Notes under the pieces: model-generated
What the model was told of the DNA's origin: nothing
Databases searched by the model: none
The model's input: only the letters and a program-made list of their open reading frames with translations
Translations under genes and position numbers: made by a program
NCBI RefSeq assembly: GCF_003634315.1
Contig: NZ_RBXL01000001.1
Location: forward strand, 2,708,501 to 2,772,500
Length of the DNA stretch: 64,000 bases
Source: Thiocapsa rosea
GTDB lineage: Bacteria; Pseudomonadota; Gammaproteobacteria; Chromatiales; Chromatiaceae
Direction: 5' to 3'
Shown: positions 7,128-34,824 of the stretch, piece after piece
How the letters are laid out: each line of letters starts with the position of its first letter
Position numbering within the stretch: the stretch's first letter is position 1

Positions 7128-7203
7128 CGGCTGGCGTCCTTGGAGACAGACGCCGCGATCTTGTCATGAAATGGCCATCTTGTGGGGTTTGGCTTTCGGG
7201 TTC

Positions 7204-7354
7204 CTGCCTTCAGCCTCCTGCCTTCAGCCTCCTGCCTTCAGCCTCCTGCCTCCTGCCTCCAGCTCTCAGCTCTCAGCTCTCAGCTCTCAGCTCTCAGCTC
7301 TCAGCTCTCAGCTCTCAGCTCTCAGCTCTCAGCTCTCAGCTCTCAGCTCTCAGC
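7204..7354. repeat. Tandem array: 14-mer block then about 13 AGCTCTC heptamers
   Basis: Positions 7204-7260 contain imperfect copies of a CAGCCTCCTGCCTT-type unit. From 7261 to 7354 there are about 13 exact head-to-tail copies of AGCTCTC. Any reading frame through it yields SQLSAL repeats, so the track of open frames here is artefactual. Together with the 77-bp repeat copy B, this fills the 7128-7686 stretch. No gene is supported there. Confidence 0.95.
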
Positions 7355-17943: not shown

Positions 17944-17967
17944 TGCCTGCATAGGGGGCGAGAGAGC

Positions 17968-18003
17968 TGTCAGCCTCCAGCCTCCAGCCTCCAGCTGTCA
18001 GCC
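17968..18003. repeat. CAGCCTC heptamer repeats between rpsT and lgt
   Basis: CTGTCAGCCTCCAGCCTCCAG contains three CAGCCTC-type heptamers bracketed by two AGCTGTCAGCC-like units. It resembles the 14-mer block at 7204-7260 and the repeat in the ribF 3' end. Confidence 0.7.
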
Positions 18004-18069
18004 GCCGACACCAAGCAACCCAAAAAGCTTACGGCGACGGCCGGTGGCCTGCACTCCGACGGTCTCGGC

Positions 18070-21982: not shown

Positions 21983-22067
21983 TAAACCGCGCAAACTCCA
22001 TCGGTCGTCAATTCTTCCGGGGCCGATCCCATCCAAAAACATCGCATACCGCGCCGGGCGCGGTTTA
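21983..22067. repeat. TIR element family, copy 1 (upstream of surE)
   Basis: This 85-bp element is bounded by TAAACCGCGC (21983-21992) and its reverse complement GCGCGGTTTA (22058-22067). Its interior matches the reverse complement of 34296-34381 with about 12 differences. It ends 7 bp before the surE ATG, so the surE ribosome-binding sequence AGGA begins at its last base. Confidence 0.9.
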
Positions 22068-22074
22068 GGACGAC

Positions 22075-22824
22075 ATGAAGATTCTCGTGAGCAACGACGA
22101 CGGTTATCAGTCGCCCGGCCTGATCAGGCTTGCCGACGCCCTTTCCGCGCTGGGCGAGGTCCTGGTCGTGGCGCCCGAGCGCGATCGCAGCGGGGCGAGC
22201 AATTCCTTGACACTCGATGTGCCCCTGCGGGCGACCCGGATGGCGAACGGCTACATCCGCGTTGACGGAACCCCGACCGATTGTGTCCACCTCGCTTTGA
22301 CCGGTCTCGCGGACGTCGATCCCGATATCGTCGTGGCCGGGATCAATCACGGTCCGAATCTCGGCGACGACGTGCTGTATTCCGGGACGGTTGCGGCGGC
22401 CACCGAGGGGCGGTTTCTCGGCCTGCCCGCGATCGCCGTGTCCATGCACGCGCATGAGCCGCAGCATCTGGACACCGGCGCGGCCGTTGCGGTGGAGCTG
22501 GTCACCCGTTTGCGCGCGGCACCGCTCGAGTCCACCATCATTCTGAACGTCAACGTACCTGACGTTCCGTATGACCAGATCAAGGGCTTCGTCGCGACCC
22601 GTTTGGGGCATCGGCACAAGGCGGAGGCCGTCGTCCCGGCATTGGATCCGCGCGGGCGTCGGATCTATTGGGTGGGGCCGGCCGGACCGGAGCAGGACGC
22701 CGGCCCCGGTACGGATTTCTTCGCCGTGCGCAGCGGTTTCGTCTCGATCACCCCGTTGCAGGTGGACCTGACCCGACACAGTGCGCTGGAGTCCGTTCGT
22801 CAATGGTTGGATGCGAGCCCTTGA
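22075..22824 (+). CDS. surE: 5'/3'-nucleotidase SurE
   Basis: SurE is a metal-dependent nucleotidase/polyphosphatase linked to stationary-phase survival. The 249-aa protein begins [15 protein letters not shown], with the D8-D9 metal ligands, and has [14 protein letters not shown] and [24 protein letters not shown], all diagnostic. It heads the conserved surE-pcm-nlpD-rpoS block. Confidence 0.96.
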
Positions 22825-22853
22825 GCACCGGGTCTATCCACCAAGGGATCGGC

Positions 22854-23486
22854 ATGACCTCGCAGCGCACCCGCGCGCGCCTGATTCAGCGTCTGGAAGA
22901 GGCGGGGATCCGAATGCCGGAGCTCCTCGAGGTGATCCGCCGATTACCGCGGCATCTGTTCGTCGACGAGGCGTTGGCGAGCCGGGCCTACGAGGACTCG
23001 GCGCTGCCGATCGGCCATGGCCAAACCATCTCTCAACCCTACACGGTCGCGCGCATGACGCAGGCGTTGATGGAGCCATCCAAGCCCGATACCGTGCTCG
23101 AGATCGGCACCGGCTCCGGGTTTCAGACGGCTGTGCTCGCATCGCTGGTGCGCCGGGTCTACAGCGTCGAGCGGATCGGTGCCTTGCTCGAGCGCGCCCG
23201 GGATCGACTTCGGCTGCTCGAATATCGAAACATCCGGTTTCGTCATGACGACGGTGCGCTGGGCTGGCCCGAATATGCCCCCTTCGACGGTATCCTGGTG
23301 ACGGCGGCGCCGCGAGGTGTCCCGCGCGTCCTGGCCGAGCAGTTGGCGCCCGGGGGCGTCATGATTCTGCCGATTTGGGAAGGGGATGCCCAAGTGCTTC
23401 TGCGTGTCACGCGCACCGCGCAAGGCTTCGAGCAGGAAGTGCTCGAGCCGGTCAGTTTCGTGCCCCTGGTTTCGGGCGTGTCTTGA
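22854..23486 (+). CDS. pcm: Protein-L-isoaspartate O-methyltransferase
   Basis: Pcm methylates isoaspartyl residues to repair aged proteins. The 210-aa sequence from ATG 22854 ([10 protein letters not shown]) has an AAGG-like ribosome site. It shows [15 protein letters not shown], the S-adenosylmethionine motif [16 protein letters not shown] and a C-terminal PVSFVPL, all conserved. Longer frames upstream overlap surE and are not used. It lies 29 bp after surE. Confidence 0.95.
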
Positions 23487-23499
23487 ACCTGGATCCGGC

Positions 23500-23583
23500 T
23501 AAACCGCGTCCAGAGCGAGATGCTCACTTTCGAGCGAGTTCGACGTTTGGTGCAACCACGACCCTTAGCGGGGACGCGGTTTA
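23500..23583. repeat. TIR element family, copy 2 (between pcm and nlpD)
   Basis: TAAACCGCGTCC (23500-23511) and GGACGCGGTTTA (23572-23583) are perfect 12-bp inverted ends of an 84-bp element. The interior differs from copy 1, so this is a second subtype. Its left end matches 31136-31172. It lies inside the surE-pcm-nlpD-rpoS operon. Confidence 0.85.
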
Positions 23584-23621
23584 CTTGTTTCCGACATGTG
23601 ACTGATTGCCGTATGTACCGA

Positions 23622-24488
23622 ATGGATCACATCGAAATCTCGAGCGGTCTGCTCGCCACCCCGTCGGACGATGGTCGCTACGGTCCCCGTGCACGCCCTG
23701 CGCGGCCTCGTGCCATGCTGTCGGTCGGTGTCTACGGACTTGGTCTGTGCGTGATCCTGCTGCTCGGGGGGTGCGCCTCGAAAGCGCCGGCACCGGTCGG
23801 CGGATGGGATTGGGTCGGTCCGGTTCCGGACGGCTACTACCTGATTCGCCGGGGCGACACGCTCAGCGAGGTCGCGACTCGGCACGGCGTGGGTCTTCGA
23901 ACGCTTGCGGGTTGGAATGGCCTGGAGTCACCGTACTCGATCTATGCCGGTCGACTCCTGCGGGTGGCCCCTCCGGACGGATCGCCCGCGCCGCAACCCT
24001 CCGCACCCCGGAGGACGCCTGCGGTCGTCGCCGCCCCCGCGACCCCGGAGCGCGCTGCGCAAGCGACCGGCACGCCAAAGGCACCGCAGGCCGGCCCCGC
24101 CGCAGCCTCGGGCGTGTCCTGGGCCTGGCCGCTCCAGGGCTCGCTCGCGCAGAGGTTCAGCGCCGGCGACCGCACGCGCCAGGGCATCCGGATTCGCGCA
24201 CGTGCAGGCACGCAGGTGAAGGCCGCAGCCGATGGCCAAGTGGTCTACAGCGGCAGTGGACTCGAAGGGTACGGCAACCTTATCATCATCAAACATAACG
24301 ACAAATATCTGAGCGCTTACGGGTTTAATCGCAGGCTGCTCGTTGCCGAGGGGGATCGGGTCACGCGCGGACAGGCGGTCGCCGAGGTGGGTCAAGCGGT
24401 CGATGGGGGCGGCTACCTTCTGCACTTCGAGATTCGCCGAGACGGCACGGCCGTCGACCCGCTACTCTATCTGCCTCCGCGATCGTAA
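23622..24488 (+). CDS. nlpD: NlpD-like LysM/M23 lipoprotein
   Basis: This is an outer-membrane lipoprotein that in relatives activates septal amidases. The lipobox LLLGGC is followed by a LysM domain (YYLIRRGDTLSEV to GRLLRV), a Pro/Ala-rich linker and a C-terminal LytM/M23 domain (WPLQGSLAQRFSAG onward). The zinc ligands are degenerate: GIRIRARAG replaces the usual HxGxD pattern and the His-x-His is lost to LHFEIR. This is as expected for a non-catalytic NlpD. The start is uncertain. ATG 23622 includes the arginine-rich n-region, 23715 gives a minimal signal peptide, and longer frames enter the repeat element. Confidence 0.85.
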   Translation: MDHIEISSGLLATPSDDGRYGPRARPARPRAMLSVGVYGLGLCVILLLGGCASKAPAPVGGWDWVGPVPDGYYLIRRGDTLSEVATRHGVGLRTLAGWNGLESPYSIYAGRLLRVAPPDGSPAPQPSAPRRTPAVVAAPATPERAAQATGTPKAPQAGPAAASGVSWAWPLQGSLAQRFSAGDRTRQGIRIRARAGTQVKAAADGQVVYSGSGLEGYGNLIIIKHNDKYLSAYGFNRRLLVAEGDRVTRGQAVAEVGQAVDGGGYLLHFEIRRDGTAVDPLLYLPPRS

Positions 24489-24512
24489 CCGCGTCCGACC
24501 CGACGGAGGAAG

Positions 24513-25553
24513 ATGTGGATGTCAAGCGCCGATGCTCGTGAGCCCAAGGTCGATGTTTCCGATCTCGCTGCGGACCTTGACGGCGAGATCCTGCTCGACG
24601 GCGAGGACTCCGAGCCGACCGACGAGGAGATCGACTCCGACGAGTCCGAGCCGGTCGAGTCCGAGACGGTCGAGCCGGCGGCCGTCGAGCCCGCGGCCCA
24701 GCGCTTCAGCTCGGGAGAAGGCGATTTCGATGCGACCCGTCTCTATCTGAACGAGATCGGCGAGTCGAAGCTTCTCACGGCGGAGGAAGAGGTGACGCTC
24801 GCGCGCGCCGCTCAGAGCGGCGACAACGCCGCGCGCCATCGCATGATCGTCTGCAACCTCCGCTTGGTGGTGAAGATCGCCCGGCGCTATCTCAATCGCG
24901 GCCTCCCTCTGCTGGATCTGATCGAAGAGGGCAATCTCGGTTTGATCCGGGCCGTGGAGAAATTCGATCCGGAGCGGGGATTTCGGTTCTCCACCTACGC
25001 CACCTGGTGGATCCGCCAGACGATCGAGCGGGCGATCATGAACCAGACGCGGACCGTGCGTTTGCCGATTCATGTCGTGAAGGAAATCAATATCTATCTC
25101 AAGGCGGCGCGCAAACTCTCGCAGAGTCTCGATCACGAGCCCACCACCGAGGACATCGCCGTCCTGCTCGACAAGCCGATCTGCGAGGTCAAGCGAATGC
25201 TCGGGCTGAACGAGCGCATTGCCTCGGTGGATACGCCCTACAGCAAGGACGCCGACAAGCCGCTCGTCGACATGCTCCAGGACGAGGCTGCCGATGACCC
25301 GGCCGACCGCATCCAGGACACCGATATTCAAGCCAATCTCGAGCACTGGCTGGGAAAGCTCAACGCCAAGCAGCGCGAGGTGGTGGAGCGTCGCTTCGGT
25401 CTGCATGGTTACGAGAACTCGACCCTCGAGAACGTCGCGCAGGAGCTGGGCGTAACCCGAGAGCGCGTGCGTCAGATCCAGATGGACGCGCTGCGGCGCC
25501 TGCGCGATATCCTGGAAAAGGAAGGGTTTTCGATCGACGCTTTTTTCAAGTAA
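24513..25553 (+). CDS. rpoS: Stationary-phase sigma factor RpoS
   Basis: RpoS (346 aa) is the general stress/stationary sigma-70-family factor. An acidic N-terminal region 1.1-like stretch (up to about residue 62) precedes [21 protein letters not shown]. Region 2 has [26 protein letters not shown] and [17 protein letters not shown], and region 4 has [20 protein letters not shown]. It follows nlpD as usual. ATG 24513 and ATG 24519 are both possible. GGAGGA just upstream is better spaced for 24519. Confidence 0.95.
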
Positions 25554-25590
25554 TACCGTTCGTCCGGATGTCGAAATCCCCGATCCGAAC

Positions 25591-25604
25591 CTGATCCAGA
25601 TCAA
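25591..25604 (+). promoter_or_regulatory. FNR/Anr-type site upstream of ccoNOQP
   Basis: CTGATCCAGATCAA matches the FNR consensus TTGAT-N4-ATCAA with one mismatch. A class II arrangement centred at -41.5 would put the transcription start near 25639, with CATATG (25624-25629) near the -10 position. Such regulation of cbb3 operons by FNR/Anr is established in other proteobacteria. Confidence 0.6.
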
Positions 25605-25780
25605 TGCTTGTTGTGGTATATCCCATATGGATCGGGTCGGATGCCCTGCTCCTATGTTGACTTTCCGACTCTGATCCAGTGATATGAACGGCGCATCGTC
25701 GCCCGATGGAGCGACATCACGAGACGGCTGGATCGCCTTATAATCCTTGTTGTTTTCCCGACGTTTTCTGGGAGGGTCTA

Positions 25781-27214
25781 ATGGAAGCCAGTCTGGAACG
25801 GAAGTACAACTTCGACGTTGTACGCTGGTTCACGATCATGGCCGTCGTCTACCTGGTGGTGGGCGCGTCTGTCGGGGTTTATATCGCAGCGGAGCTGGCT
25901 TGGCCGGCACTGAATCTGGATAGCCCCTATTTATCGTTCGGGCGTCTGCGCCCGCTCCACACCAATGCCGTCATCTTCGCCTTCGGCGGCTGTACCCTGA
26001 TGGCAACCGCCTTCTATACCGTCCAACGCACCTGCGGCGCACGCCTCTGGAGCGATAAGATGGCGTGGTTTACCTTTTGGGGTTGGAATCTCGTCATCGT
26101 TTTGGCCGTGATCACCCTTCCGCTGGGTCTGACGCAATCCAAGGAATACGCCGAGCTCGAATGGCCGGTCGACATCCTGATCGCCGTGGTTTGGCTCTCG
26201 TTCACCATCAATTTCGTGATGACCATCGCCAACCGGAAGTCCTCGCACATTTACGTGTCGAACTGGTTCTTCCTCGGCATGATGATCATGATCGTCTATC
26301 TGCACGTGGTGAACAGCCTGGCGATCCCGGTCGGACTCTTCAAGTCGTACTCGGTCTTCTCGGGTGTACAGGACGCCATGATCCAGTGGTGGTGGGGACA
26401 TAACGCGGTCGGGTTCTACCTGACGGCAGGCTTCCTCGGGATCATGTATTACTTCGTGCCGAAGCAGGCGGGACGCCCGATCTACTCCTACCGTCTTTCG
26501 GTCATCCATTTCTGGGCCTTGATGTTCGGTTACGTCTGGCTCGGTGCGCATCATCTGCAATACACCGCGCTGCCCGACTGGACGGGATCGCTCGGAGCCG
26601 CGGTCTCCATCGCGATGATCATCCCCTCCTGGGGTGGTGCCGTGAACGGCATGATGACCCTATCCGGTGCATGGGATCGGTTGCGGACCGACTATGTTCT
26701 GCGCTTCCTGATCATCGCACTCGCCTTCTACGCCATGTCGACCTTCGAAGGCCCGGTCATGTCGCTGAAGACGGTCAACGCCCTTTCCCATTACACCGAC
26801 TGGACCATCGGTCATGTGCATTCCGGTGCGCTGGGCTGGGTTGCGGGGATCTCGATCGGTGCGATCTACCACCTCATGACACGGCTTTATCACACCGAGA
26901 TGTTCTCGGTGCGCCTGATCAACTTCCATTTCTGGACGGCGACGATCGGGACCGTGATCTATATCGTGGCCATGTGGGTCTCGGGGATCATGCAGGGTCT
27001 GATGTGGCGGGCCTACGACGAGTACGGCACCTTAGCCTACACCTTCGTTGAATCCGTAGACGCGATGCACCCCTACTACGCCATGCGAACGGTCGGTGGC
27101 GCGATCTTCCTGCTCGGCGCCGTCGTCATGCTCTTCAACATCTTGATGACCGTGCGTAAGTCGTTGTCCGAAGGCAGCCTGAGCAAGGCGCGCGCCTTGC
27201 CGGCAGCGGCATGA
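25781..27214 (+). CDS. ccoN: cbb3-type cytochrome c oxidase subunit I
   Basis: CcoN is the catalytic haem b/b3-CuB subunit of the high-affinity cbb3 oxidase. The 477-aa protein has about 12 membrane helices and the family's histidine-rich helices, for example [47 protein letters not shown] and [18 protein letters not shown] 25781 is preceded by GGGAGGG. The longer upstream frame to 25706 is not coding. It heads ccoNOQP. Confidence 0.96.
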
Positions 27215-27231
27215 TCCCGGAGTAGCATCTA

Positions 27232-27978
27232 ATGGCCGATAAAAAGACGAAGCCGAAGTCCTTTCAGGAATGGATGGAGGTCAACATCTGGGGCCTGCTC
27301 ATCGTGACGGCCCTGGTGCTGTCCGTGGGCGGGTTGGTCGAGATCGTCCCGCTCTTCTATATGAAGAACACCATGGAGCACAACACCTATCCGGAGATCG
27401 TGTGGGACAAGGCCGGTCAGGAGCCGATCGTGACGGTCGACGAGGCCGGCCGGCAGCAATGGAACTGGAAGCCGGGCGAGGGGATGCGTCCCTACACGGC
27501 GCTCGAGCTGGCCGGGCGCGACATCTATCAGCGCGAAGGGTGTTATCTCTGCCACTCGCAGATGATTCGTCCCTTCCGCGACGAGCGCGAGCGTTACGGG
27601 CACTACTCGCTGGCCTCCGAGTCCATGTTCGACCATCCCTTCCAGTGGGGCTCCAAGCGCACCGGACCGGATCTCGCGCGGGTGGGCGGCAAGTACTCGG
27701 ACGAATGGCAGCGTCAGCACATGCGTGCGCCGCGCTCCTTGGTCCCCGAGTCCGTGATGCCGGGCTACCCCTGGTTGGACGAGAACTATCTGAGCGGCAA
27801 GAAGATGCAGCGTCACATGCGCGGCATGCGGACCATCGGCGTGCCCTATTCGGATGCCGATATCGCGGCTGCTCCGGCTCTGGTGGAAGGCAAGACCGAG
27901 ATGGATGCGTTGGTCACCTACATGCAGGTCCTCGGCACCATGGTCGCCCTCGACGAGTCCAAGACCTACCGTGAGTAG
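27232..27978 (+). CDS. ccoO: cbb3 oxidase monohaem cytochrome c subunit II
   Basis: CcoO (248 aa) is a membrane-anchored monohaem cytochrome c passing electrons to CcoN. A single N-terminal helix (about residues 20-42) precedes the haem site C104-Y-L-C107-H108. The likely axial methionine lies in VMPGYPWL. It starts 17 bp after ccoN. Its stop overlaps the GTG start of ccoQ. Confidence 0.95.
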
Positions 27979-28186
27979 TCTCAGCGACTATTTTCAGACC
28001 GATTGGCAGGCGATGACGACGAATGATTGGATCGGCACGATCCTCACCGTCGTCATCTTCCTGCTGATGGTCGGTGCCTACTTCTACGTCTTCCGTCCTA
28101 AGAACCGGGAAAAGCTCGAAGCCATGAAACATATCCCGTTCGAAGAGGACAACGAGAACACCGGAGACCCACATGGCCGAAAATAA
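27971..28186 (+). CDS. ccoQ: cbb3 oxidase small subunit CcoQ
   Basis: This is a 71-aa single-helix protein of the CcoQ/FixQ family. The GTG start at 27971 overlaps the ccoO stop and gives [11 protein letters not shown] then a membrane helix ([20 protein letters not shown]) and [12 protein letters not shown], typical of CcoQ. It stabilises the complex in other species. Its last 14 bases overlap ccoP. Confidence 0.88.
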
Positions 28187-29087
28187 CCCCTTTCCCGGTG
28201 AGAACAATACCGGGCATGTCTGGGACGACAACCTTCGGGAACTGGCGAATCCGCCGCCGCGATGGTGGATGCTCGGATTTTGGGCGTCCATCCTCTTCGT
28301 CATCGTCTATACGATCCTTTACCCGAGCTGGCCCGTCGGTCAGCAGGCGACACCCGGACTTTTAGGGTGGACGCAGATTCAGGAGTACGAGAGGGGCGTC
28401 GCTCAGGTCGACGCGAAGCGCGGTCCGTTCGAAGAACAGATCAGCCAGATGACCGCCGAGGAGATCATTGCCGATCCGGGCCTGCTGCAGTACACGCTGG
28501 CATCGGCCAAGGTCGTGTTCGGTGATTACTGCTCGGCCTGTCACGGCAGCGGCGGCCAAGGCAATCCCGGCTATCCCGTCTTGGCGGACGACGACTGGCT
28601 CTACGGAGGCTCGATCGCGAAGATCAAAGAGTCGATTACGAACGGGCGCAAGGGGGCCATGACCGCCCACGCGAGCATCCTCGCCCAAGAGGAGATCGAT
28701 GCACTTGCCCGCTGGGTCGTCGAGATGAATGAGGGTGGCGAAGGCAGCGCGGAGGGTTGGGAGCTGTATCGCGCCAAGGGCTGCAACGCCTGTCACGGCG
28801 AGAAAGCCAACGGCGTGCTGGCCGAGCTGCCCGGCGGAGAGATCGTCAGCGTCGGTGCCTCGAATCTCACCGACAGCATCTGGCGCTTCGAGCCCGGTGG
28901 TTTCGAGAGCGCGCGTCACACGATCATGTACGGCGTGAACCAGCCGGGCGTGCCCGAGACCCGTGACGCCGTGATGCCGGCTTTTGGATCGGTCGCGAAA
29001 GTGGACGATGTCGAGGTTCGCAAGCTCAACGATCAGGATATCAAGAAGCTCGCCATCTATGTCCACCAGCTCGGCGGGGGCGGATGA
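28173..29087 (+). CDS. ccoP: cbb3 oxidase dihaem cytochrome c subunit III
   Basis: CcoP (304 aa) is the dihaem entry point for electrons. After an N-terminal motif HVWDDNLRELANPPPRWW and one membrane helix, the two haem sites are C120-S-A-C123-H124 and C204-N-A-C207-H208. ATG 28173 overlaps ccoQ. A 48-aa membrane peptide gene follows 71 bp later. Confidence 0.96.
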   Translation: MAENNPFPGENNTGHVWDDNLRELANPPPRWWMLGFWASILFVIVYTILYPSWPVGQQATPGLLGWTQIQEYERGVAQVDAKRGPFEEQISQMTAEEIIADPGLLQYTLASAKVVFGDYCSACHGSGGQGNPGYPVLADDDWLYGGSIAKIKESITNGRKGAMTAHASILAQEEIDALARWVVEMNEGGEGSAEGWELYRAKGCNACHGEKANGVLAELPGGEIVSVGASNLTDSIWRFEPGGFESARHTIMYGVNQPGVPETRDAVMPAFGSVAKVDDVEVRKLNDQDIKKLAIYVHQLGGGG

Positions 29088-29158
29088 GTCGACCGCAATG
29101 ACGTGCGGACTGGTTCGCCGGTCCGCGTGAAACGAGGGGTGCACGGGAGGAGATCGAC

Positions 29159-29305
29159 ATGACCGGAGGTTTGACGTGGGACTTCGTGACTTGGATGTCG
29201 CTCGCGATGGTTGCCATTGCGATCTTCATCATCGTATTCCTGGTCTACAAGGTCATCGCCCTGATGAATCGGGATGCAGAGGCGCATAAGAACAACGAGC
29301 ATTGA
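29159..29305 (+). CDS. 48-aa single-helix membrane peptide after ccoP
   Basis: This short gene begins at ATG 29159 after a strong GGGAGGAGATCGAC ribosome-binding stretch and ends at TGA 29305. The peptide has a polar start (TGGLTWDFVTW), one hydrophobic helix (LAMVAIAIFIIVFLVYKVIAL) and a charged, His/Asn-rich cytoplasmic tail ending NNEH. It lies between ccoP and a strong terminator, so it is the last gene of ccoNOQP. Position and form resemble small cbb3 accessory subunits such as CcoM of Pseudomonas stutzeri. Sequence relationship is not shown. No other function is suggested. Confidence 0.7.
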   Translation: MTGGLTWDFVTWMSLAMVAIAIFIIVFLVYKVIALMNRDAEAHKNNEH

Positions 29306-29333
29306 AGGCGTCTGACGTCGTGTCATGTCATCG

Positions 29334-29363
29334 AGGGGGGATCTGAGATCCCCCTTTTTTTGT
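29334..29363 (+). terminator. Rho-independent terminator of the ccoNOQP operon
   Basis: GGGGGATCT and GATCCCCC form a GC-rich hairpin with a tiny loop, followed by eight consecutive T residues. It lies about 30 bp after the 48-aa peptide gene. Confidence 0.92.
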
Positions 29364-29707
29364 ACCGAAAATGGCTTTTGAATCAATTGTTTGTGCTTGC
29401 GAAAACGCATGGCTAAAACATCGCGGGAGGCGTAAGCTGATGCGTTCAAGGAAGTGGTGATCAGGTGACCTGGGCCGGGTAACCTCGGCGGGCCGACGTC
29501 GTTTTCGCGCAGATCAGTCCGACCGGATTCGATCCCCGGTGGGCGTAGCGCCCATCACCCGGCGGTTGAGCCCTCGGATGGCCGCGATCGTCAAGGCCAT
29601 CAGCGCCATGCCTGCCTCGCTTCCCTCTTGCGCGCCATCACGATGCGCCTGAATCGCAATGCCTAAGCGCGCCTGTCGTAACCTTGACCCCGTCGTGGAG
29701 ATGGTCA
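29364..29707. other. Intergenic stretch between cco terminator and ccoG
   Basis: It should contain the ccoG promoter, but I cannot assign boxes. I see no FNR consensus. A minus-strand frame through 29514-29729 encodes a peptide with an Ala/Leu-rich segment. It has no ribosome site or recognisable domain and overlaps ccoG, so I do not call it. Confidence 0.5.
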
Positions 29708-31138
29708 GTGAGCACGAATCCTGTGGCAACCCAAACCGCTGTCGATGACCTCTATGCCGAGGCCGAGCATTGGCATGTCAATACCGGCGGGGAGACGATC
29801 CACGCCAAACGTCTTGCAGGGCGTTGGCGCACCATCAAATGGGCGGCCGCGTCGGTCTGGTTGATCTATTTTCTGGGTCCTTACCTGCGCTGGGACGGCC
29901 GACAGGCGGTCTTGTTCGACATCCCGAACCGGCAGTATCACATCTTCGGCGCGACGGTCCTTCCGCAGGACTTCTGGATGCTCTCGCTGTTGTTGCTGTT
30001 CTTCGCCATCCTGCTCGCCGTGGCAACCGCGTTGGTCGGCCGTGTCTGGTGCGGCTATTTTTGCTTCCAGACGGTTTGGACCGACGTCTACACCTGGATC
30101 GAGGAGAAGCTCGAGGGCAGTCCGCCGCAACGCCGGAAGCTCGACAAGGAGCCGATGTCTCCGAGCAAGTTTCGGATCAAGGCCACCAAACATGCCCTCT
30201 GGCTGCTGATCGGTTTCATCACGGGTATCAGCTTCGTCGCCTGGTTTACGGACGCACCCGCACTGTGGGGGAGCTTCTTCGCCGGCGAGTCGGGTCCCGT
30301 GGCCTACATCACGGTGGCGCTCTTCACGGTCGGGACCTACGGCCTCGCCGGGTTCATGCGCGAGCAGGTCTGCTTCTGGCTCTGTCCCTACGCGCGCATC
30401 CAAGGCGTCATGCTCGACAAAACGACCATCGTGCCGACGTACGATCTGGTGCGCGGCGAGCCGCGCGGACGCGTCAAGCGCGGCGAAACCGGCCAAACGC
30501 GCTCGGGCGGCGACTGTGTGGACTGCAACCAGTGCGTCGCCGTCTGTCCGACCGGTGTCGATATCCGTAACGGGCAGCAGGAAGGCTGCATCACCTGTGC
30601 GCTCTGCCTCGATGCCTGCGATCAGGTGATGGATAAGGTCGGGCGTCCGCGCGGCCTGATCCGCTATGCCTCTCTCGACGAGCTCGAAGGATTGCCCACC
30701 AAGAAACTCTTGCTGCGTCCGCGTGTCTGGGTGTACACGGCGATCATGAGCGTCGCGTTGGCCGGCATCCTCTACGGCTTCTCGACCTTGGCGGCGATCG
30801 ACCTGAAGGTTCTGCACGAGCGTGCGCCGCTTTACGTGCGGCTCAGCGACGGATCCATCCAGAACAAATACACGTTGAAGATCCTCAACAAGATGCCCGA
30901 GGAACTCGCCGTGCGGATCAGCGTGACCGGCCCAGACGGCTTGGTGCTCATGGGTGCGGACGAGCCGATCGTGGCACCGCCGGGCGGGGTGACCCCCGCC
31001 GTCGTCTTCGTGAAGGTGCCGAAGCGCTCGCTCGCGAGCGAGCAACAGCCCGTGCAGTTTCACGTCGAAGCGGCGAGGCCGTCCGGTGCCGTGGTCGAGG
31101 CCGACCGCGACAGCGTCTTCATTGCGCCGCGTCAATAA
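29708..31138 (+). CDS. ccoG: Cytochrome c oxidase accessory protein CcoG (FixG/RdxA)
   Basis: CcoG is a membrane iron-sulfur protein needed for copper handling in cbb3 assembly. The 476-aa protein has several N-terminal helices with CGYFCFQTVW and CFWLCPYARIQ. Two ferredoxin-like cysteine clusters follow (CVDCNQCVAVCP and CITCALCLDACD), then a C-terminal Ig-like domain. The GTG start at 29708 is preceded by GGAG. The start 29684 lies in non-coding leader. Its TAA stop coincides with the start of a TIR-type repeat. Confidence 0.93.
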   Translation: MSTNPVATQTAVDDLYAEAEHWHVNTGGETIHAKRLAGRWRTIKWAAASVWLIYFLGPYLRWDGRQAVLFDIPNRQYHIFGATVLPQDFWMLSLLLLFFAILLAVATALVGRVWCGYFCFQTVWTDVYTWIEEKLEGSPPQRRKLDKEPMSPSKFRIKATKHALWLLIGFITGISFVAWFTDAPALWGSFFAGESGPVAYITVALFTVGTYGLAGFMREQVCFWLCPYARIQGVMLDKTTIVPTYDLVRGEPRGRVKRGETGQTRSGGDCVDCNQCVAVCPTGVDIRNGQQEGCITCALCLDACDQVMDKVGRPRGLIRYASLDELEGLPTKKLLLRPRVWVYTAIMSVALAGILYGFSTLAAIDLKVLHERAPLYVRLSDGSIQNKYTLKILNKMPEELAVRISVTGPDGLVLMGADEPIVAPPGGVTPAVVFVKVPKRSLASEQQPVQFHVEAARPSGAVVEADRDSVFIAPRQ

Positions 31139-31172
31139 ACCGCGTCCAGAGCGACATGCGTCATTTTCCTGT
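31136..31172. repeat. TIR element family, solo left end
   Basis: TAAACCGCGTCCAGAGCGA here is identical to the left end of the element at 23500. Weaker similarity extends to about 31170, but no matching right end follows. Its first three bases form the ccoG stop codon. Confidence 0.75.
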
Positions 31173-31197
31173 AAAGAGATTGAGGCAACAAAAAGCG

Positions 31198-31722
31198 ATG
31201 AGCTCGACGACCCACACCACGGAAACACCCTCCAAACCGACCCCTGCGCTGCGCAGTCCCTGGGTCCTGGCCTGGATCGGCCTGCTCGTCACGGTGCTGG
31301 CCGTGAATCTGACCTTCGTGATTCTCGCGATCCGGACCAACCCCGGGTTGGTCAACGCCAACTATTACGAGCGCGGACAGGAATACGAGCGGACCATGAT
31401 CACGCGCCTTGCCCGGGATCCCGGTTGGCTGATGCGTGCGGACATCCCAAAGCCCCTGACGGCCGGCGTAGAGGAGTCGATTGGTCTGGTGCTGGTCGAT
31501 CAGGCCGGACAACCCGTGGATGTCGACGAGGCGACCTTTTACGCTTACCGTCCGTCCGATGTCTCGCGCGACTTCGCGCTGCCGATGACTCGAGAGGGCA
31601 AAGGGCGCTATCGGGTGGAAACATCCTTCCCCTTGATCGGTGTATGGGACACCCTGATCGCGGTGAAGACCGGCGAGGACGAGTACAGCGTCGGCGAGCG
31701 TGTCAACGTCGCTCGCCCCTGA
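31198..31722 (+). CDS. ccoH: cbb3 oxidase assembly protein CcoH (FixH)
   Basis: This is a 174-aa FixH-family protein with one N-terminal membrane helix ([21 protein letters not shown]) followed by the FixH region [12 protein letters not shown] and a periplasmic beta domain. CcoH is required for stable cbb3 assembly. ATG 31198 is chosen over 31156, which lies inside the repeat. Its 3' end overlaps ccoI by 23 bp. Confidence 0.88.
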
Positions 31723-34282
31723 GGTCCGGGCGACTCCGGGCTCAAGCCCGGAGGCGGAGGTGCACCCGGATGCGTCCTCCACCCGAATACGCTGCTTTCA
31801 TTGCGGTCTTCCGGTCGCCGAATCCGCGCGCGAGACGGCCTTCATTGCCGGGCGCGAGCGGTCCTTCTGCTGCACCGGCTGCAAGTCGGTCTGCGAGGCG
31901 ATCTTCGCCGCAGGACTCGAGGGTTTCTACAAACGCACCCCCGAGGGCGAGATCTTCGGTCCGCCGCCCGAGCCGCCGAAAGACCTGGCCGTCTTCGACC
32001 TCGATGCCGTGCAGGAGGAGTTTACCGACACCGCCGGCGAGTCCCGCGAGATCAATCTCCTGGTCGAAGGCATCCACTGCGCCGCCTGTGTCTGGCTGAT
32101 CGAGAAGGGCCTCTGCGCCATGCCGGGGGTCGAAGAGGCTCGCGTCAACCTCACCGGACGGCGGTTACGCGTGCGCTGGGACAACGGCCGCCTAAAGCTC
32201 TCCCGGATCCTGGGCCGACTCGCCGATCTCGGCTATGCCGCCGCACCCTTCGATCCCGAATCGGCCGAGGGTGCGATCGGACGCGAGAACCGCGCCATGC
32301 TCTACCGCATGGCCTGGGCGGGGTTCGCGATGATGAACCTCATGTGGATCTCGATCGCGCTCTATGCCGGCGCCGACCAAGGCGAGTTCCGCGGTCTCTT
32401 TCAGTGGCTCGGCTTCTTGATCGCCACGCCCACGCTCCTGTACTCGGGCGCGCCCTTTTTCCGCGGGGCGGTGTCCGGTTTGCGCTCGGGCCATCTGAGC
32501 ATGGACCTGCCGATCGCGATCGGCGTGACGACCACCTACGTCTACTCGCTCTATGTCACGCTCGGCGTCTCCAGCATCGGCGACGTCTACTGGGATACGG
32601 TCGTCAATTTTCTCTTCGTTATCCTGGTGGGGCGCTATCTGGAGGCGATCTCGCGCCGCAAGGCCGTGGCCTCGACGCAACGGCTGCTCGATCTGCAACC
32701 GAAGGTCGCGACCCGGTTGGACGGGGAGGACGGGGAGACCGAGTCGGTCGTTCCGGTGCGCGCACTCAAGCTCGGCGAGCGCGTGCTGGTGCGTCCGGGC
32801 GAGCGCATCCCCGTCGACGGCGAGGTGATCTCGGGCGGCAGCGGGGTGGACGAATCCATGCTGACCGGCGAGTCGCGACCGGTCGCCAAGACGCTCGGCG
32901 ATCAGGTCGTTGCGGGCACCATCAACGGCGCCGGTGTCCTGACCGTGCGCATCGGTGCGCTGCTGCGCGAGACCGCGCTGGGTCGCATCATCCGACTGGT
33001 GGAGGACGCTCAAGCCAGCAAGGCGCCGATTCAGCGGCTTGCCGACCGGATCGTGCCTTGGTTCGTCGCGGCAACGCTCGGTCTGGCGACCCTGACCTTC
33101 CTGATCTGGATGCGGATGGATGTCGAGGTCGCGGTCATGGCGGCGACGGCCGTGCTCATCATCACCTGTCCCTGCGCCTTCGGCATGGCCACGCCGATGG
33201 CTGTGGCCGTGGCGACGGGGCTTGCCGCCTCGCGCGGCATCCTGGTGAAGAACGGCGCCGTGCTCGAACGCCTCTCCTCGATCGATCACTTCGTCTTCGA
33301 CAAGACCGGGACGCTGACCGTCGGACGACCGGCCGTGACCGGGCTCGCGAGCGCGCCCGGCCGTTGGCGCCAACTCGAGGGGCCGCACGATCTGACGCCC
33401 GAGGAGCGCGATGTTCTTGCCGGGCTCCAAGCCCTCGAACGGCTCTCCGAGCATCCGATCGCCGCAGCCGTCCTGGACCTCTGCGAGCGTGCCGGGATCG
33501 ACCGTATCGCCGCGCCGGTGGAGGCGGTCGAGGTCGCGCCGGGTCTCGGGATCAAGGGGCAGGTCGGCGGTGTGGAGATCCTCGCGGGCTCGCAGGCGTG
33601 GCTGGTCCGCAACGGCGTGCAGCCTTGGTCCGACGGTGACGAGCAGTCCGCTCAGACCTCGGGTCTTGTCCATTGCGCGCGGGCCGGTCATGAGGTGTTG
33701 CGGCTCGGCGTCGCCGATCCGCTCCGACCCGATGCCGCGCGCGTCATCGCGCGAATGCGCGAGCGCGGGATCCGGGTAACGCTTCTGACCGGCGATCGAC
33801 GCGAGACGGCCGAGGCGATCGCGGCCCAGCTCGGCGGCGGGATCGAGGTCATCGCCGAGGTGATGCCCGAGGACAAGGATCGTGTCATCGCCGAGCTTCA
33901 GCGTGGCGGCCGCCGGGTCGCCATGGTCGGCGACGGGGTGAACGACGCGCCTGCTTTGGTGCGGGCCGATGTCGGCATCGCCATGGGAAGCGGTACGGAT
34001 GTCTCCATCGCCAGCGCGGACATCGTCCTCATGTCCAGCGAGCTCGGGCGTGTCGAAGAAGCCGCCCGACTGTCGCGACGCACCCTTCGGACCATCCGCC
34101 AGAACATCGGCATATCGGTGGTTTACAATCTCATCATGGTGCCGCTTGCGATGGCCGCAGTCATCACGCCACTGATCGCCGCCATCTCGATGCCGCTCAG
34201 CTCTCTGGCGGTCATCGGCAACTCGGCGCGGATCCGTGCGGTCTTCAAGGCCGGGGGGAGCGGCGCACCGCGCGAGCCGTGA
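31700..34282 (+). CDS. ccoI: Copper-transporting P1B-ATPase CcoI
   Basis: CcoI exports or delivers copper for the cbb3 CuB centre. The 860-aa protein starts with a cysteine-rich region (C32xxC35, CCTGCKSVC at 57-65) and a heavy-metal domain GIHCAAC (C127, C130). Eight membrane helices include the transport motif C490-P-C492. D534 in DKTGT is the phosphorylated residue. TGES, SEHP and GDGVNDAP motifs are intact. The GTG start at 31700 lies inside ccoH. Confidence 0.94.
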
Positions 34283-34295
34283 CCCGAGCGGGCGC

Positions 34296-34381
34296 TAAAA
34301 CCGCGCCCCACGCGGTATGCGATGTCTTTGGATGGGACCGACCCCGGCAGATTTGACGACCGCTGGAGCCGGCGCGGTTTA
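34296..34381. repeat. TIR element family, copy 3 (between ccoI and ccoS)
   Basis: This 86-bp element has ends TAAAACCGCGC and GCGCGGTTTA and is the inverted homologue of the element at 21983. Shared interior blocks include GGTCGTCAA, CCCATCCAAA and ACATCGCATACCGCG (read on the minus strand). It separates ccoI and ccoS, which are adjacent or overlapping in many relatives. Confidence 0.9.
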
Positions 34382-34409
34382 ATGGCATGAAGTGGAGGTT
34401 CGAGCGAAG

Positions 34410-34643
34410 ATGGACGTCATCTACGGCCTGATCCCCGGAATGCTGGTCCTTGGACTCGCTGCGGTCGCCGTGCTCTTCTGGGCGACCCGAACCGGTCAAT
34501 ACGACGACCTGGACGGCGACGGTCGCCGCATCCTGATGGACGAGGACACCGAGGACGGCGACCCGCGGCGGGCGCCCCCGATGGACGCCGAGCCCGATCT
34601 GAATCCCGTCGCGAGTGATCCAACTGAATCCCGTCGCGAGTGA
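34410..34643 (+). CDS. ccoS: cbb3 oxidase maturation protein CcoS
   Basis: This is a 77-aa protein with the CcoS signature: MDVIYGLIPGMLVLGLAAVAVLFW helix followed by RTGQYDDLDGDGRRIL. CcoS is needed for cofactor insertion into cbb3. ATG 34410 is the family start; an upstream in-frame codon at 34392 adds only six residues. It is displaced from ccoI by a TIR element. Confidence 0.92.
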   Translation: MDVIYGLIPGMLVLGLAAVAVLFWATRTGQYDDLDGDGRRILMDEDTEDGDPRRAPPMDAEPDLNPVASDPTESRRE

Positions 34644-34685
34644 TCCGCCAGGTGAGATGCGCCATCGACGCCGCACCCATTAAAG

Positions 34686-34705
34686 ATCCCGGTAGACGCC
34701 GGGAT
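34686..34705. terminator. Hairpin downstream of ccoS
   Basis: ATCCCGG (34686-34692) and CCGGGAT (34699-34705) pair perfectly over a 6-nt loop, about 40 bp after ccoS. No T-tract follows directly, so an intrinsic terminator is uncertain. Confidence 0.4.
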
Positions 34706-34736
34706 TCAGGAGATAAAAGCATTAAAAATTAATTAC

Positions 34737-34824
34737 TTAAACTGCGGCGTCCGCCGGCGATTCAAGTGGCTCGGATATCGCCGCAGTGCACGGACCTCTC
34801 GCACACCAAAGCGCCGCAGTTTAA
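34737..34824. repeat. TIR element family, copy 4 (ccoS side of the carbonic anhydrase gene)
   Basis: TTAAACTGCGGCG (34737-34749) and CGCCGCAGTTTAA (34812-34824) are perfect 13-bp inverted ends of an 88-bp element of the same size class as copies 1-3. The TIR is a variant (AAACTGCG in place of AAACCGCG) and the interior is different. It ends within a few bases of the stop of the carbonic-anhydrase-like gene. Confidence 0.8.

Follow-up and report, generated by a model that had tools for sequence, protein, structure and literature searches.

The 64,000-nucleotide stretch of Thiocapsa rosea DNA considered here (contig NZ_RBXL01000001.1, positions 2,708,501 to 2,772,500; hereafter the window) contains short inverted repeats in the gaps of its surE and cco gene clusters, which raises the question whether these are mobile DNA, functional RNA structures or local hairpins that have nothing to do with one another. 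A preliminary description had assigned four of them to one family, either as non-autonomous miniature inverted-repeat transposable elements (MITEs) or as structured mRNA elements tuning distal gene expression. Three of the four, together with a truncated copy, very probably represent a superfamily of TA-duplicating MITEs, comparable to ERIC and RUP, that is built from two modules, A and B, often paired. Indeed, the genome harbours a swarm of about 1,000 of these small mobile DNA pieces, many of them joined in unlike pairs and many placed precisely where a gene ends.

A genome-wide search with the ends, as had been proposed initially, retrieved 588 exact matches to TAAACCGCG...CGCGGTTTA around a core of 55-80 bp in the 6.11-Mb genome and none with the reversed control, so that the family is not tied to the surE and cco operons. 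When one mismatch per end was permitted, 143 modules were found in 864 kb, which extrapolates to about 1,000 genome-wide. This sample consisted of the window and 40 evenly spaced 20-kb stretches of the same genome, in which genes were called by a simple hexamer script and not by a standard gene finder. The exact two-ended pattern was present in 28 of 210 Chromatiaceae genomes, representing 10 of 61 genera (reversed control: one match in one genome). Within Thiocapsa, eight of 11 genomes contained 120-581 exact copies and three contained none; outside this genus, single genomes of two genera carried 264 and 80 copies and single genomes of two further genera reached 93 and 46, the remaining genera having 1-3 per genome. 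A scan of IMG/VR with the family pattern gave no matches, and a plasmid search with one pair as query yielded nothing useful.

Insertion takes place at TA with duplication of this dinucleotide, as is shown by three clean empty sites, the kind of evidence that the preliminary description had recommended seeking in relatives. Orthologous regions of seven other Thiocapsa genomes were compared (relatives are labelled G0xx and sampled loci Lxxx). The surE site is empty in G064, G061, G058 and G060, with exactly TA between the flanks. Similarly, a site upstream of surE (L162:2837 and L166:19751) reads exactly TA in G061, G060 and G023, and the site of a pair in G064 (L244:13445) reads exactly TA in all six alignable relatives. 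In 90 of 99 sampled units, a pyrimidine precedes and a purine follows the TAs (YTAR context). In addition, presence or absence of units varies between close species. The elements thus display the properties of MITEs, being short, free of a transposase gene, bounded by terminal inverted repeats, dispersed in many copies and accompanied by a TA duplication at the three clean sites.

Two module types were distinguished, A of 84 bp and B of 85-86 bp, which have nine end bases in common and related outer halves, as indicated by profile cross-matches; the A2 and B1 profiles include the window's own copies, and only cross-matches were taken as evidence. The first element of the window (positions 21983-22067, minus strand, outer end at the right) is an 85-bp B module lying 7 bp before the surE start (B2 profile built without this copy, E 6e-13), and its outer half (22067-22016) is also matched by the A1 profile, which contains no window copy (E 3e-4). 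The third element, in the ccoI-ccoS gap and 14 bp after the ccoI stop, is the same module B in the opposite orientation (plus strand, 85 bp; B2 profile without this copy, E 2e-12). Its left end reads TAAAACC in the window and TTAAACC in the five relatives that carry a unit at this site, so that the module was set to 34297-34381 with its terminal T altered to A. The second element (23500-23583, plus strand), in the pcm-nlpD gap and 13 bp after the pcm stop, is an 84-bp A2 module; it had been thought to share only its type of terminal repeat with the others, but the A1 profile without window copies matches it as well (E 3e-8). A truncated A1 module of which only the outer end is left (31136-31172, plus strand; A1 profile E 1.4e-9) had been missed. 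All four hairpins of the preliminary description are present; taken from its coordinates, their perfect terminal inverted repeats measure 10, 12, 4 and 13 bp, respectively, the 4 bp being those of the element that was re-bounded.

Among the 99 sampled units, 42 consist of two or three joined modules, namely 35 clear A-B pairs with their outer ends outward, two triples (B+B+A- and A+B-A+), three units with one unclassified module and two with a contrary arrangement. When distinct pairs of the window's genome and its relatives were taken together (linker of 15-30 bp), the outer-ends-out order was found in 59 of 63, with four exceptions; the linker of these 59 pairs measures 20-25 bp (23 bp in 37 of them), with a mean A+T content of 84%. 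The common composite, about 192 bp in all, has an A module joined to an inverted B by some 23 bp of AT-rich linker, and at some sites it was inserted as a whole. A minimal palindrome of 23 bp is also present. The same site can hold different forms. The surE site carries a lone B in the window and A-linker-B pairs in G059 and G063. The ccoI-ccoS site carries a unit in six of the eight Thiocapsa compared, in two orientations, with B alone in the window and G061, B-linker-A in G064 and G063, and the reverse order in G059 and G060. Because a single B in some genomes corresponds to a pair at the same site in others, single modules could in part be deletion products of pairs, arising when the direct TAAACCGCG repeats within a pair recombine. 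As to the two orientations at the cco site, pairs of opposite orientation are 0.85-0.89 identical and unlinked copies reach 0.93. Units of opposite orientation thus resemble each other no more than copies from unlinked sites do, so that inversion of one ancestral insertion is not a clear cause; the preferred explanation is that the one TA was hit repeatedly, inversion followed by divergence being the less favoured possibility. Some target TAs may thus have been used more than once.

Some individual copies have an unusual structure. At L147:669-943, the first two modules of a B+ B+ A- triple have a single TA in common, as if one had been inserted into the duplicated TA of the other. At L157:7246-7439, an A module contains an insert of 110 bp, the ends of which seem inverted themselves (GTAGCTTCTCAATAA / TTATTGAGAAGTTAC), so that it is apparently a different mini-element nested in the first. 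Finally, the A2 module at L167:13727-13810 and its orthologues in G058 and G023 have both ends altered jointly to TAAAGCGCG/CGCGCTTTA, which suggests that one arm was corrected with the other as hairpin template.

The position of the units relative to genes is equally characteristic. In 34 of 99 units, the TAA of the module is the in-frame stop codon of the adjoining gene (18 of 54 in a first sample and 16 of 45 in a second, fresh sample); for free YTAR sites situated outside genes or at stops, the number that are stop codons is 52 of 427 and 51 of 420, respectively (binomial P 4e-5 for each sample). As the element itself begins with TA-AACC, it supplies the stop when its target TA is part of TAA or TAG. 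None of the 99 units is located inside a called gene, and 37 of the 38 gene ends within units coincide with the element's first codon, the other lying at base 53. Orthologues were checked for 20 gene ends of the first sample. For fourteen, one or more relatives without the element end the gene at that very codon, and in ten of these at least one such stop is TAA or TAG; for the remaining six no element-free orthologue occurred in the set. Exceptions are the L160 stop, which lies 27 bases later in G057, and the L155 stop, one codon earlier in G062. In the window, the truncated module at 31136 provides the stop codon of the ccoG/FixG-like gene (29723-31138, plus strand; FixG_C and Fer4 domains), the orthologues of which end with TAG in six of seven relatives and with TAA in G064. 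Pairs between convergent genes, each end of which gives the stop of one gene, were seen at L145:13250-13441 and L147:8264-8455. Overall, the distance to a gene 3' end is at most 20 bp for 54 of 99 units and for 137 of 847 free YTAR sites. Among these 3'-proximal sites, stop codons account for 34 of 54 occupied and 103 of 137 free ones and thus show no excess, which argues against recognition of stop codons as such. The stop-codon habit therefore probably reflects retention at gene ends combined with TA targeting, whereby purifying selection would leave the copies that landed there.

The same proximity to 3' ends might alternatively mean that modules are retained as functional hairpins, such as terminators, structures protecting mRNA 3' ends or processing sites, mobility merely supplying them; any module in any orientation would suffice, and a site would stay occupied during turnover. 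This is unlikely, albeit with some observations in its favour. At the stop codon L149:15456, all eight Thiocapsa compared have a family end, seven of them with a complete module, A or B and in differing orientations, and in two genomes the end is altered to TGA, which is still a stop. Furthermore, the folds of modules are more stable than those of composition-matched mononucleotide shuffles, with mean z from -2.1 to -4.7 when 21-25 modules per subfamily were sampled. The stem is, however, a consequence of the inverted ends needed for transposition, and the module ends seem conserved partly since copies were found by requiring intact ends. Covariation was assessed on exact-length copies (A1, 36 of 41; B1, 71 of 81; B2, 19 of 25; A2, 39 of 54). 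Double-change cells in the outer-to-inner fold amounted to 0 for A1 (null mean 0.5), 2 for B1 (3.3) and 8 for B2 (3.9, maximum 9), all within shuffled expectation, so that covariation lends no support to an RNA role for these subfamilies and the suggested tuning of distal gene expression was not borne out. Only A2 exceeded the shuffles, with 7 double-change cells against a null mean of 0.6 and a maximum of 4, an excess possibly due to one shared locus. Rfam gave no match at gathering score on the elements, the only hits in the window being two tRNAs, and one pair gave two sub-threshold matches. Moreover, purifying selection alone would also leave the 3' bias, and three Thiocapsa genomes lack exact copies altogether. 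Slightly more speculative is the idea of a heterodimeric mobile element that has turned into a genus-wide, interchangeable gene-end cassette, which at or beside stops gives both a new TAA and a hairpin; the cell would hold the site filled while module kind and orientation change, and the presence of some module at the site, not its sequence, would be selected.

Several observations weigh against the MITE interpretation. The empty surE allele already reads GCGGTTTA, and its empty state might accordingly reflect the loss of an older copy. At the cco site, two empty relatives have TG instead of TA. The window genome and G058 show 12 additional base differences at L166:19751. For the pcm-nlpD element at 23500, no clean empty counterpart was found among the relatives, and the junctions at L149:18245, L240:15916 and L240:17570 and at two sites in L158/L256 could not be aligned. 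In four of the 14 stop cases, element-free orthologues show only TGA, which contains no TA. Finally, none of 29 PF13358 loci in six genomes is bracketed by family ends within 1.5 kb, and a scan of 1.49 Mb for longer copies, up to 4 kb and exact at both ends, gave none except the A module with the 110-bp insert.

The presumed mover of these MITEs would be a DDE transposase of the IS630/Tc1 type, acting in trans on the TAAACCGCG ends. PF13358 genes occur in all six genomes tested, but the ends of the multicopy IS630-type element, TATACCTC, differ from those of the family; IS630 prefers CTAG targets. PF13586 was absent from the three genomes examined for it. The matching transposase sought at the outset was hence not found in the families searched (PF13358, PF13586 and Y1); other transposase families were not searched. 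Movement by a RAYT (Y1) transposase, the modules then being REP/BIME-like repeats, is very improbable. Alternating inverted modules with a fixed linker do recall BIMEs, and the Thiocapsa family resembles REP/BIME and REPIN in its inverted modules, fixed spacing and frequent location near gene ends. Y1 genes are present in 16 of 16 genomes tested, with 3-19 matches in eight high-copy carriers versus 1-4 in five family-free genomes. REPs, however, are 20-40 bp long, carry GTAG/CGTC tags and have RAYT partners, whereas the Thiocapsa modules are 84-86 bp with a TA duplication; neither such a duplication nor simple conserved ends are known as RAYT features. Among 30 Y1 loci examined, out of 109 matches, none is bracketed by family ends; one Y1 locus (L225, in a family-free genome) has an inward pair of ends, one of which lies inside the gene.

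The fourth hairpin of the window (34738-34823, between the convergent genes ccoS and that of a hexapeptide-repeat protein) is a locus-specific structure outside the family, contrary to its initial grouping. It matches none of the four module profiles at E values up to 10, and it is orthologous in all eight Thiocapsa compared, with compensatory changes in its arms. The arm pair is TGCGGC/GCCGCA in G064, G023 and the genome of the window, the remaining five having TTCGGC/GCCGAA; in G060, one further arm base is changed, giving a wobble. This paired change has at least two origins, because G023 groups with G058. The tree was used only for the ingroup pairs of the window genome with G064, G059 with G061 and G058 with G023, and was left unrooted because two outgroup rows had only part of the genes and an odd placement. 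In its simplest reading, the fourth hairpin is probably a two-way terminator, and its similar size and end letters could conceivably make it a very old, diverged family copy. Unrelated local hairpins, conserved in place, suit this one structure; as an explanation of all four they are almost certainly wrong, since homologous copies of the other three elements number in the hundreds and, for the first and third, empty orthologous sites contradict this explanation. The element at 23500 has homologous copies and no clean empty site.

The SurE protein encoded in the window shares 97% identity with a Thiocapsa counterpart. Next to the family elements of the window lie the following plus-strand genes: surE (22075-22824; PF01975, E 9e-61), downstream of the element at 21983; pcm (22854-23486; PF01135, E 1e-56), upstream of that at 23500; and the genes for a ccoI-like P-type ATPase (31760-34282) and CcoS/FixS (34410-34643; PF03597, E 5e-19), upstream and downstream, respectively, of that at 34297. 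Upstream of ccoG, at 29441-29628, the alignment breaks in seven of ten Thiocapsa relatives while the flanks align. A 14-bp repeat of the GCCTTCAGCCTCCT type occurs in runs at 7192-7282 and 17966-18014.

These MITEs imply that a share of the stop codons and 3' untranslated regions of Thiocapsa is transposon-derived, which is a warning for annotation. The eight pattern-bearing and three pattern-free Thiocapsa genomes, with filled and empty stops of the same genes, also offer a test of the effect of mobile hairpins on mRNA ends. No earlier account of the family was found in a literature search in which subscription papers were thinly covered, so that a description may exist elsewhere; the terms 'repeats', 'mobile element' and 'transposase' do not occur in the available part of the Thiocapsa BBS genome paper (PMC10892978).

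Elements of this kind are already known. The ERIC (IRU, RU-1) sequences of enterobacteria are small palindromic repeats with TA ends and a TA duplication, occurring as single units of 123-127 bp (PMC2229807, PMC2759123, PMC6267812). The Thiocapsa family has the small palindromic form, the TA ends and the TA duplication in common with them, but consists of 84-86 bp modules in unlike A/B pairs, and one A-linker-B pair searched against 20,395 Escherichia coli records gave no match at E 0.01. In number, its 588 exact modules (about 1,000 extrapolated) are comparable to the 552 complete copies of the ERIC relative MITEPlu5 in one Photorhabdus genome, the ends of which are like those of a subset of IS630 elements (PMC6267812). 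RUP of Streptococcus pneumoniae (107 bp), for which IS630-Spn1 is the proposed mover, likewise is non-autonomous and targets TA; it is an AT-rich single unit with a known matching insertion sequence, whereas none was found for the Thiocapsa family (PMC2229807, PMC3049150). Similarly, the Correia/NEMIS elements of Neisseria are TA-terminated MITEs with 24-bp ends and forms of 107 and 155 bp (PMC2229807); they resemble the Thiocapsa family in their TA termini, and pairing of unlike modules is not mentioned for them in the excerpt of that paper. Furthermore, an RU-1 insertion took away the stop of a gene (PMC2759123), whereas in Thiocapsa the stop is supplied by the element. The paired architecture and this supply of stop codons are the distinctive parts of the Thiocapsa family.

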